This document shows, piece after piece, positions 50,898 through 54,265 of a DNA stretch of 64,000 bases. Numbering within the stretch: position 1 is the first letter of the stretch; each line of letters starts with the position of its first letter. A model generated the notes under the pieces. It saw only the letters and a list, made by a program, of their open reading frames with translations, was not told where the DNA came from and made no database searches. Origin of the DNA: Rubrobacter calidifluminis (GTDB lineage Bacteria; Actinomycetota; Rubrobacteria; Rubrobacterales; Rubrobacteraceae); contig NZ_JAQKGV010000001.1 of the NCBI RefSeq assembly GCF_028617075.1, forward strand, positions 248,001 through 312,000, read 5' to 3'. The position numbers were made by a program, and so were the translations under genes.

Positions 50898-50947
50898 CTT
50901 ACCCCCGGTCATCCTGGGAAACGACAGGACCGATCTCCTCCGGGAGA

Positions 50948-50976
50948 TTGATACTTGTGTTGTGAGGCATTCTAAC
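50948..50976 (+). promoter_or_regulatory. Putative promoter TTGATA-N17-TCTAAC
   Basis: TTGATA (50948-50953) and TCTAAC (50971-50976) are 17 bases apart. Transcription would begin just before the hairpin at 50996. Confidence 0.35.
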
Positions 50977-50995
50977 AGGATATTAGTGCGGGGAG

Positions 50996-51015
50996 AATCC
51001 CCCGAATGGGGGATT
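50996..51015 (+). terminator. Terminator-like hairpin in a leader region
   Basis: AATCCCCC, loop GAAT, GGGGGATT, followed by AATTTTTG. The eight-pair stem is perfect and ends in a T run. It stands about 300 bases before any plus-strand gene, so it may be an attenuator, the end of a very short RNA, or an operator palindrome. Confidence 0.6.
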
Positions 51016-51316
51016 AATTTTTGTTCGTGGCCTGAAAACAGCAGGTTTCTGCTATGTTCCCGGTCCTCTCCGGCGGTTAGATTGGAAGTCGGGTGGCCGG
51101 AAGAAAAGAGCGTCCAGTGATCGGATGGATGGGGTGTAGTCACCTGGGACCTGACCACAGCCGACTGCGCGGAGGCTTTCGGATGGAGCTTCGAATGAGA
51201 TGGCAAGCCCGGCGAGCACACCTCCTTTGACCGGAACGATCCGGGATAGGAGGTAGAGAAGAGGAGCATCGATGGGAGGGAAAACCGGTGGAATTCGAGA
51301 GTGAAAGGAGGAGAAA

Positions 51317-51937
51317 GTGGCTTATCAACTAGAAGGACGATTGCTTGAGGTCTGCAACTGCAACGTGCTCTGTCCCTGCTGGATCGGTGAGGACCCCGAC
51401 AACGGCACCTGCGACTCGGTGTTGGCTTATCACTTCGATAAAGGGACGATAGACGGCGTGGACGTCTCGGGACGGACCTTCGCCGCGCTTGCCTACCTCC
51501 CCGGCAACGTGCTCGATGGCAATTGGAGGGTTGTCGCATTCGTAGACGATGAGGCTACAGACGAGCAGCAGGAGGCTCTTCTGAACGTCTTCACCGGCAG
51601 GCTCGGCGGACCGCTGGCCGATCTCGTGCAGCTGATCGGTGAGGTGGTCGCGGTGGAGCGGGCACCCATCACCTTCACCGTCGAAAAAGGGAGGGGGACG
51701 CTCAGGGTTGGTTCGGGGGTGAACCTCATAGTTGAGGCGGAGATGGCTTCCTACATGGGAGCCACCGAGAAGCCGACCACCCTGCAGGAGACGATCTTCT
51801 CCACCATCCCCGGCTCTCCCGCCTACGTGAGCAAGGCCACCAGGTACCGGCGCAACTCCTCCGCCTACGGCCTGCAGGACATAGACATCCAGGACAACAA
51901 CGCCATCCAGGGTCACTTCCATTTCGAGGCGGCCTGA
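51317..51937 (+). CDS. DUF1326 domain protein with N-terminal cysteine cluster
   Basis: This 206-residue DUF1326 protein starts at GTG 51317 behind GAAAGGAGG. Cysteines cluster at the N-terminus (13, 15, 19, 21 and 32; CNCNVLCPCW then GTCDS), and the C-terminus ends with a HFHFEAA pattern; metal or redox binding is plausible but unproven. DUF1326 genes are often paired with DUF2182 genes, and one follows here, 67 bases later. Function is unknown. Confidence 0.93.
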   Translation: MAYQLEGRLLEVCNCNVLCPCWIGEDPDNGTCDSVLAYHFDKGTIDGVDVSGRTFAALAYLPGNVLDGNWRVVAFVDDEATDEQQEALLNVFTGRLGGPLADLVQLIGEVVAVERAPITFTVEKGRGTLRVGSGVNLIVEAEMASYMGATEKPTTLQETIFSTIPGSPAYVSKATRYRRNSSAYGLQDIDIQDNNAIQGHFHFEAA

Positions 51938-51947
51938 GAGGGCATCC

Positions 51948-51977
51948 GGGGCGGAGCTCGAAGGACGGCTCCGCCCC
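51948..51977 (+). other. Intercistronic hairpin between DUF1326 and DUF2182 genes
   Basis: GGGGCGGAGC (51948-51957) and GCTCCGCCCC (51968-51977) form a perfect ten-pair stem with a ten-base loop. There is no T tract, so it is more likely an mRNA stability or processing element than a terminator. Confidence 0.6.
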
Positions 51978-52004
51978 ACTCATCGAGAGAGGTGATCTCC
52001 TGCC

Positions 52005-52808
52005 ATGTGGACAGCACCGCGCGGCTTACATAACCGGGTCTTTACCGTCCTTGTGGCGGCGCTCATCGTACTGGCCTGGCTCGCGCTATGGCTCTGGAGC
52101 GCCTCCCCCTACGCTCCCTACCTGAACCACGAGGAACTGGGCCACCTCGTCCTCGGCGGCATAGGGGGACGATTCGTGCTCGAGTACGCCCTGCTTCTGG
52201 CTCTCTTCGTCTCCGGCTGGATGCTGATGATAGTCGCCATGATGCTCCCCACCAGCCTGCCGCTGGTGCTGCTCTTCGAGCGCTTTACCCACCAGCGTTC
52301 CGACCATCTACTGCTCATCGCCCTGCTCCTCTGTGGCTACATAAGCGTCTGGACGCTCTTCGGTGCTCTGGCCTTCTTCAACGACCTCTTCATCCACGAA
52401 GCGGTCGAGCACACATCCTGGCTCGAAGCCAACTCCTGGGTCATAGGGGCGGGTACCCTGATGCTCGCGGGCGTCTACCAGTTCGCACCCCTGAAGTACA
52501 GATGCCTGGAGAGGTGCCGTTCCCCTCTCAGCTTCATCGCGGAGCACTGGCGGGGCCGGCGCGAGGCGCCCCATGCATTTTTACTCGGGGTCCATCACGG
52601 GCTCTTCTGTCTGGGGTGCTGCTGGTCTTTGATGCTGGTGATGTTCGCGGTAGGCGCAGGAAACCTGTTGTGGATGGTCCTTTTGGGAGCGGTGATGGGA
52701 GTGGAGAAGAACGTGAGTTGGGGCAGGAGGATCAGTGCCCCTGTGGGAGTGGCGCTCATCTGCTGGGCGGCGGCGATCAGCCTGGGTTGGGGCGCGGCAT
52801 TGCAGTGA
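52005..52808 (+). CDS. DUF2182 membrane protein (putative metal-binding)
   Basis: This 267-residue membrane protein has about seven helices. Family-type motifs are GWMLMIVAMMLPTSLPLV, PLKYRCLERCRSP and GVHHGLFCLGCCWSLM, with Met, Cys and His residues placed in or beside helices, consistent with metal binding. ATG 52005 is behind GAGAGG. It forms a unit with the DUF1326 gene; a joint role in membrane metal handling is inferred only. Confidence 0.92.
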   Translation: MWTAPRGLHNRVFTVLVAALIVLAWLALWLWSASPYAPYLNHEELGHLVLGGIGGRFVLEYALLLALFVSGWMLMIVAMMLPTSLPLVLLFERFTHQRSDHLLLIALLLCGYISVWTLFGALAFFNDLFIHEAVEHTSWLEANSWVIGAGTLMLAGVYQFAPLKYRCLERCRSPLSFIAEHWRGRREAPHAFLLGVHHGLFCLGCCWSLMLVMFAVGAGNLLWMVLLGAVMGVEKNVSWGRRISAPVGVALICWAAAISLGWGAALQ

Positions 52809-52849
52809 GCCGGTGGTAAGTGAACGAAAGAGAGAAGGAGAGCGGATCT

Positions 52850-54265
52850 ATGGCGGAACAAGAGAACACCGTGGCCCGGACGCCCGCGGAGGAGGTCGTT
52901 CGGGAATTTGCCGGACGTTTCCGGGGCGAGGTGATCCTGCCGCGCGATGACGGTTACGAGTCGGCCCGAAAAGTCTTCAACGGCATGATCGACCGGCGCC
53001 CGGCCATGGTGGTCCGCTGCACCGGTGTTGCCGACGTGGTTGCCGCCGTCCTCTTCGCCCGGGCGGAAGGGCTCGAGGTGGCGGTCCGCGGCGGCGGACA
53101 CTCGGTCCCCGGCTACGGGACCTGCGACGGCGGCATGGTCATCGACCTCTCGGCGATGAAGGGGATGCGGGTGGACCCGGGGGCCAGGACGGCCCACGCC
53201 CAGGCCGGTCTTACCTGGGGCGAGTTCGACCGCGAGACGCAGCTCTTCGGGCTCGCCGTGACGGGCGGGAGGGTCTCCGGCACCGGGATCGCCGGGCTCA
53301 CCCTGGGCGGTGGAAGCGGCTGGCTGGAGCGCAGCCTCGGCTTCACGGCGGACAACCTCCTCTCGGTGGAGATGGTCACCGCCGAGGGCGCTTTCGTCCG
53401 GGCGAGCGAGACCGAGAACGTGGAGCTCTTCTGGGGCTTGCGCGGAGGCGGGGGCAACTTCGGCATCGCGACCTCCTTCGAGTTCAGGCTGCATCCGGTC
53501 GGGCCGATCGTACTCGGCGGGATGCTGCTCTACCCCGCGGAGCGGGCCCCCGATCTCCTGCGCTTCTACCGCGACTTCGTCGAGACGGCTCCGGAGGAGC
53601 TTGGTGGGGGGTGCGCGTTTATCACCGCCCCTCCGGAGCCGTTCATCCCCGAGCGGGTGCAGGGGACGAAGCTCCTCGCCGTCATCGTCTGCCACGCGGG
53701 ACCCATTGAGGAAGGGGAAGAGGCGATCCGGCCGCTGCGCGAGGCCTTCCCGCCGGCGATGGACATGGTCCAGCCGATGCCCTACACGGTGGTCCAGACG
53801 CTGCTCGACGCTGCCAACCCTCCCGGGATGCAGCACTACTGGAAGGCAGGCTTCATGAACGGGCTGCCGGACGAGGCCATAGACATCGCCGTCGAGAGCG
53901 CGCTGCGGATGACCTCGCCGCTGACGGCGCTGGCGCTCTTCCCGATGGGCGGTGCGATCTCCCGCGTGGCGGAGGAGGATACGCCGCTCGGGCCGCGGAG
54001 TGCCCTCTACAACTACCACGCGCTCGCGCAGTGGGCCGACCCGGCCGGGTTCGAGCAGCATGCGGGCTGGGCCAGGGAGCTCGACGCGGCGCTCCGGCCC
54101 TGGACCGACGAGCGCATCTACCTCAACTTCATCGGCGACGAGGGAGAGGAGCGCGTACGCACCGGCTACGGTCCCGAGAAGTACCGGCGTCTCGCCGCCC
54201 TCAAGCGCGAGTACGACCCGGACAACTTCTTCCACCTCAACCAGAACATAAAACCGATGGCATAA
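52850..54265 (+). CDS. FAD-linked oxidase with BBE domain
   Basis: This 471-residue oxidase has an FAD-binding PCMH domain: VRGGGHSVPGYGTCDGG carries the His used for covalent 8-alpha attachment. In the segment where two-link members have Cys, it reads GTGIAGLTLGGGSGW, so only a single covalent bond is expected. The C-terminal BBE segment ends YNPDNFF-like (YDPDNFFHLNQNI). Members oxidise sugars or alkaloids. ATG 52850 behind AAGGAG is preferred to GTG 52820. Confidence 0.92.
   Translation: MAEQENTVARTPAEEVVREFAGRFRGEVILPRDDGYESARKVFNGMIDRRPAMVVRCTGVADVVAAVLFARAEGLEVAVRGGGHSVPGYGTCDGGMVIDLSAMKGMRVDPGARTAHAQAGLTWGEFDRETQLFGLAVTGGRVSGTGIAGLTLGGGSGWLERSLGFTADNLLSVEMVTAEGAFVRASETENVELFWGLRGGGGNFGIATSFEFRLHPVGPIVLGGMLLYPAERAPDLLRFYRDFVETAPEELGGGCAFITAPPEPFIPERVQGTKLLAVIVCHAGPIEEGEEAIRPLREAFPPAMDMVQPMPYTVVQTLLDAANPPGMQHYWKAGFMNGLPDEAIDIAVESALRMTSPLTALALFPMGGAISRVAEEDTPLGPRSALYNYHALAQWADPAGFEQHAGWARELDAALRPWTDERIYLNFIGDEGEERVRTGYGPEKYRRLAALKREYDPDNFFHLNQNIKPMA

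Follow-up and report, generated by a model that had tools for sequence, protein, structure and literature searches.

The window, the whole 64,000-nucleotide stretch of Rubrobacter calidifluminis DNA analysed here, contains two adjacent genes on its forward strand. The first (51317-51937) opens with a GTG start codon and encodes a 206-residue protein of the DUF1326 family (PF07040; E 2.3e-55, 187.9 bits against a cut-off of 25 in the Pfam profile search). The second (52005-52808) encodes a 267-residue membrane protein of the DUF2182 family (PF09948; E 1.1e-66, 224.8 bits against a cut-off of 28.7), which Pfam now names "PpoB2, Copper chaperone" and which is called PpoB2 below. An earlier note on this DNA had described the two genes as neighbors, and both open reading frames (ORFs) are found where it placed them, separated by a 67-nt gap (51938-52004, forward strand) that contains a GC-rich hairpin and the ribosome-binding site of the PpoB2 gene. 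On the same strand, 41 nt 3' of PpoB2, an FAD-linked oxidase gene with FAD_binding_4 and BBE domains starts with an ATG at 52850 and ends at 54265; because of this short distance, the three genes may share one transcript. A divergent LuxR-family regulator gene with a GerE domain lies on the reverse strand (49743 to about 50897). The genome of the window has a single copy each of DUF1326 and PpoB2. PF07040 and PF09948 were the only Pfam matches of the two proteins at E values up to 0.1, with no HMA, SCO1 or Cox17-type domain in either, and profile searches against solved structures gave no significant match for either protein. A motif test of 8486 ORFs revealed no DUF1326-PpoB2 fusion.

The pair had been called recurrent in bacteria, and our survey strongly bears this out. 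Among 296 genomes of the window's phylum, DUF1326 is present in 53 (17.9%, which makes the pair widespread), PpoB2 in 58 and both in 48 (Fisher p 2e-39). When partnerless matches are counted too, including those at contig ends and fragments, 57 of 78 DUF1326 matches and 57 of 72 PpoB2 matches in these genomes lie within 2 kb of the partner; 54 of the 57 adjacent pairs are encoded on the same strand, with DUF1326 first in 38. A wider set of loci, fetched by a PpoB2 motif alone, spans Chloroflexi, Proteobacteria, Acidobacteria, Cyanobacteria and others. DUF1326 lies within 2 kb in 78 of these 80 loci and comes first in 76. The 80 are the best of 576 relatives confirmed for the window protein, so that this sample is biased to near relatives. 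The pair was also found on halophilic archaeal plasmids, and a DUF1326 homologue is encoded on pHG1 of Cupriavidus necator H16. Moreover, the two proteins diverge together: for 103 pairs left after thinning, the DUF1326 and PpoB2 distance matrices gave a Mantel r of 0.81, a value reached in none of 2000 permutations (maximum 0.14), in a test that does not correct for shared species history.

In genomes with several pairs, subfamilies are matched to their partner. G106, a genome of the same genus, has three pairs, in each of which DUF1326 and PpoB2 have common nearest relatives (DUF1326/PpoB2 identities: window pair, 86/86%; G145, 87/78%; G084, 97/100%). The exception is G095, where a third-type PpoB2 adjoins a different DUF1326 type within a three-DUF1326 array (L161:5874-9566) that reads PpoB2 - DUF1326 - DUF1326 - DUF1326 - PpoB2, with two PpoB2 and three DUF1326 types. 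Between two of the pairs of G106, a sulfite-oxidase-type molybdopterin oxidoreductase is encoded (L156:7223-8347).

The pair has been replaced at the window's own site within the genus. G084 shares the flanking genes (TrmFO 98%, oxidase 95.5% and Ddl 96% identical) and carries between LuxR and oxidase (L162 versus window 50898-52850) another pair that is 36-38% identical and in the reverse order, and G106 has a G084-type pair behind the same LuxR gene, at a contig end. At this locus, homology covers the promoter side and breaks off beyond it. With a non-orthologous pair between conserved flanks, both genes of the pair were swapped together while the LuxR and oxidase genes stayed. In its account of a LuxR-family regulator facing the pair, the earlier note was right about the divergent GerE-domain gene; the sensory N-terminus that it proposed has no Pfam domain. 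The sole pointer to such a function is the best NCBIfam match of the gene, to the BagY/FevT regulators of bagremycin/ferroverdin clusters, far below the cut-off (159 versus 700 bits). The gene is at most a weak candidate for the regulator of this pair, because the same LuxR faces a non-orthologous pair in two genomes of the genus. A perfect 20-bp palindrome (50996-51015) followed by a T-rich stretch is situated between LuxR and DUF1326, and the genome contains two matches to its 18-bp core; it was not taken to be an operator, as its palindromy is lost in G084 and G106.

The mRNA hairpin reported for the gap between the two genes is present, with a GC stem about 10 pairs long (GGGGCGGAGC / GGCTCCGCCCC), and a GC-rich hairpin occupies the same gap in all six close-type loci folded. 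A 76-nt stretch with the hairpin folds only modestly better than shuffled versions (z -1.73). RNAalifold found 0 pairs with compensatory change, so we regard the hairpin as a conserved position and not as a proven structure. It is not a typical terminator, because a T-run is absent after the stem.

A further pair-associated cassette was observed in three genomes. In G084 (L162:6830-7460), G011 (L163) and G106 (L183), a TusA-like ORF with a CPGP motif and a DsrE-like ORF lie between the third-type PpoB2 and DUF1326. The DsrE-like ORF contains an in-frame TGA that would yield a UGSC motif, with the same codon in all three genomes; UGSC selenoproteins are mentioned in PMC2398784. A tRNA-Sec passed the gathering cut-off in G000, G084, G011 and G041, but not in G106. 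The TusA-DsrE-DUF1326 cassette is nearly identical between G011, which belongs to another genus, and G084/G106, which suggests recent horizontal transfer.

The DUF1326 protein had been described as soluble with clustered cysteines, and the cluster proved to be invariant. Its five cysteines (C13-x-C15-x3-C19-P-C21 ... C32; codons at about 51350-51415, forward strand) were conserved in 77 of 77 distinct sequences from PpoB2-fetched loci and in 62 of 62 others, 139 of 139 in all, counted on sequences that cover those columns (distinct totals 80 and 64). No N-terminal signal was evident in the first 55 residues of 25 sequences, where the most hydrophobic 15-residue stretch averaged 0.96 and reached 1.88 at the highest. 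The AlphaFold2 model (pLDDT 94.4, pTM 0.90) shows the acetoacetate decarboxylase superfamily fold, matching acetoacetate decarboxylases over the full length (Foldseek E 1.1e-5; Z 11.3, rmsd 4.0, 162 aligned residues). The segment from C13 to C32 runs between strands 1 and 2 of the model: four cysteines are located in the loop that follows strand 1 or next to it, and strand 2 starts with C32. Acetoacetate decarboxylases have a conserved Schiff-base lysine. Among 25 DUF1326 sequences no lysine is invariant or nearly so, and none of the columns with at least 15 Lys/Arg is mostly Lys; DUF1326 is therefore not classed as a decarboxylase. Few polar residues are conserved apart from the cysteines and D77. 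DUF1326 resembles the superfamily members MppR, Swit_4259 and SbAD over its whole length (Z 10-11), but is only 8-14% identical to them and has a five-cysteine loop instead of the conserved lysine.

PpoB2 is, as the earlier note had stated, a Met/Cys/His-rich membrane protein. It is an integral one with conserved Met, Cys and His ligands, and its profile score lies above the curated PF09948 cut-off. Its model is helical (pLDDT 88.5; no Foldseek match at E <= 0.001, best VIA Z 5.0). The mean number of Lys plus Arg per loop alternates strictly in 25 sequences (4.3/0.3/3.9/1.1/5.4/0.04/2.8/0.1), from which the positive-inside rule predicts seven helices with the N-terminus inside, a cytosolic CxxxC motif (C167/C171) and Met/Cys/His residues in the membrane. 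The residues of interest are W72, M75, M79 and M80; C167 and C171; H198, C202, C205, C206 and M210; and E234. Among 127 distinct paired PpoB2 sequences, M80 and C171 are present in 127, M79 and C167 in 126, H198 in 121, M210 in 120 and M75 in 119 (His replaces it in the remaining 8). C202/C205/C206 are present in 125 of 127 (2 gaps), a count that is not independent for L061-L140, because these loci were fetched with the pattern HGxxC[LV]GCC[WA], which includes those three residues; motif-selected sequences also served as seeds of alignments A1 and A2.

Comparison of paired copies with solo copies, defined as PpoB2 matches without DUF1326 within 2 kb, links the family to copper enzymes. Tyrosinase (PF00264) occurs in 26 of the 296 genomes and lies within 4 kb of 6 of 15 solo and 0 of 57 paired copies (p 3e-5), the 15 including fragments, contig-edge matches and two weak matches. 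Five of the six solo copies are at 948-996 bp from tyrosinase; the remaining one, in G135, is a fragment 3.5 kb away. The neighbor in G254 was confirmed as a tyrosinase at E 4e-33. On a Mycobacterium avium plasmid, a solo PpoB2 lies between csoR/copA and a multicopper oxidase; CsoR family matches are found in at least 236 of the 296 genomes. The contrast is not absolute, because a paired copy in Caballeronia lies 2.3 kb from a tyrosinase. The genome of the window has no PF00264 match, so its locus is not a tyrosinase-PpoB2 operon. The two groups also differ at residue 205, counted on whole alignment columns: it is Cys in 50 of 50 paired PpoB2 fetched without a C205-containing pattern (L061-L140 omitted; 2 gaps), and Ser or Ala in all four aligned solos beside tyrosinase or CsoR/CopA/multicopper oxidase (L150, L171, L179 and L180). 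Cys205 is kept by 5 of the 9 aligned solos, namely the five outside those four. Two further sequences, G206 and G236, are too divergent for the profile and read RRCALLCGPLM in this region by eye.

Most of the genes that flank paired copies have no relation to copper. ORFs were clustered around 136 adjacent-pair loci, many of them overlapping or redundant, and Pfam families were tallied for 211 of 220 cluster representatives within 1.6 kb, the 9 very long ones being omitted. No copper family was among the 25 commonest Pfam families listed for each batch (77, 74 and 60 representatives), and the 211 representatives contained no recurrent neighbor beyond the FAD-linked oxidase, a Burkholderiales EamA-type transporter and scattered SnoaL, MFS and TetR proteins. 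On two Roseobacter plasmids (L141 and L147) the pair precedes a DMSP demethylase gene, followed in one by the SBP56 methanethiol oxidase gene. The FAD-linked oxidase (E <= 1e-70, first 5 candidates per genome scored) occurs in 69 of the 296 genomes and lies within 2 kb of DUF1326 or PpoB2 in 12, against about 0.5 expected under a crude placement model. Ten of these 12 genomes belong to the window's family, in which the oxidase is a recurrent third gene. Its best NCBIfam match is BagK/FevA1 of bagremycin/ferroverdin biosynthesis, far below the cut-off (267 versus 800 bits).

Taken together, we lean slightly towards the view that the pair is a copper-transfer module, in which a membrane protein of the PpoB2 type has DUF1326 as its dedicated Cu(I) partner in the cytosol. 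The analysis shows co-occurrence, adjacency, co-divergence, the invariant ligands, a predicted topology and the solo/paired contrast; copper as the metal, contact between DUF1326 and PpoB2, a phenotype and the direction of transfer are inferred. Chaperones of the MelC1, SCO1-SenC and CopZ types are small proteins that deliver copper, with genes that lie next to or close to that of a cuproenzyme. The present pair would be similar in having a small copper-delivery partner, but neither protein matches those families in Pfam; SCO1 is treated as a copper chaperone in PMC5739008. The closest known system is Marinomonas mediterranea PpoB2 (COG5486, PF09948), described in PMC2855505 as handing copper specifically to the tyrosinase PpoB1. 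It belongs to the same Pfam family and is likewise a membrane protein in a two-gene operon with a dedicated partner, which is a tyrosinase there and DUF1326 here. Paired PpoB2 has the extra C205 relative to the aligned solos linked to copper enzymes, the Marinomonas protein being known here by its description. Our literature search, with subscription papers mostly outside it, returned no paper mentioning DUF1326 or its COG5588 and PF07040 identifiers and none naming DUF2182 or PF09948; COG5486 appeared in PMC2855505 only. The earlier note had proposed a metal-handling membrane system whose job is not known. The family name, the invariant Cys, Met and His residues and the copper-related neighbors of solo copies support the former, with copper as the probable metal. 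The latter no longer holds for the membrane half, whose founder has a name and a reported role in copper transfer, and still holds for DUF1326, which is uncharacterized.

In tyrosinase-type operons, PpoB2 would give copper to the enzyme encoded alongside it. At the present locus, DUF1326 would take the place of tyrosinase as the dedicated partner, either as a carrier or as the final acceptor. Helices 2 (M75, M79 and M80) and 5 (H198, C202, C205, C206 and M210) of PpoB2 would carry a Met/Cys/His path through the membrane, and the cytosolic C167/C171 loop would exchange Cu(I) with the five-cysteine loop of DUF1326, in which this soluble cytosolic protein may hold the ion. Transfer from membrane to cytosol is a guess, made because DUF1326 lacks an export signal.

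Other functions have to be weighed against this one. DUF1326 could itself be the copper client, an enzyme whose acetoacetate decarboxylase-like fold bears a Cu-thiolate site, and PpoB2 would load it as it does tyrosinase. Its place in the operon is that of tyrosinase in solo operons, and the full length of its model aligns with a superfamily of enzymes; nevertheless, a common fold shows no function, and the absence of a conserved lysine and the scarcity of conserved polar residues besides the cysteines and D77 make an enzyme improbable. We also consider it quite unlikely that the module serves another metal (Zn, Fe-S, Ni, Co or Hg). Four to five cysteines would suit Zn or Fe-S, and single pairs adjoin cobalamin genes, an iron-chelate ABC transporter or a GDCCVxC protein, but each of these contexts is a single case and the relatives of PpoB2 point to copper. 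Moreover, Met ligands within the membrane are characteristic of Cu(I).

The TusA-like and DsrE-like genes between PpoB2 and DUF1326, together with the DMSP demethylase and, once, SBP56 beside Roseobacter pairs, would fit a persulfide or thiol relay in which the cysteines carry sulfane sulfur instead of a metal. Such a relay seems very unlikely, given that the TusA/DsrE genes of the three genomes are almost the same DNA and thus count as one event, that the window's pair has no TusA/DsrE genes and that SBP56 is itself described as copper-dependent in PMC5739008. Least of all do we expect the pair to be a maturation system for the adjoining FAD-linked oxidase: the adjacency far exceeds the expected number, but 10 of the 12 genomes are of one family, the oxidase is found at 1 of the 80 wider loci (L068; best 80 of 576) and 33 of the 69 genomes with the oxidase lack the pair.

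Returning to copper transfer, a bolder version, which we put forward tentatively and think more likely wrong than right, is that DUF1326 is the founding member of a previously unrecognized class of Cu(I) carriers in the cytosol, with an acetoacetate decarboxylase fold and a CxCxxxCPC...C loop, that dock on a seven-helix copper importer of the PpoB2 type. Lineages of PpoB2 would then have switched client from tyrosinase to DUF1326, a switch marked by C205 in the membrane path. How bacteria import copper and how it is delivered in the cytosol is, to our knowledge, not well understood. The pair is a real and widespread module; its membrane half is a member of a known copper family, and its soluble half is uncharacterized. 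It offers a dedicated soluble partner, an invariant cysteine cluster and a predicted membrane route, with C205 as a marker residue that sets paired PpoB2 apart from tyrosinase-type PpoB2.
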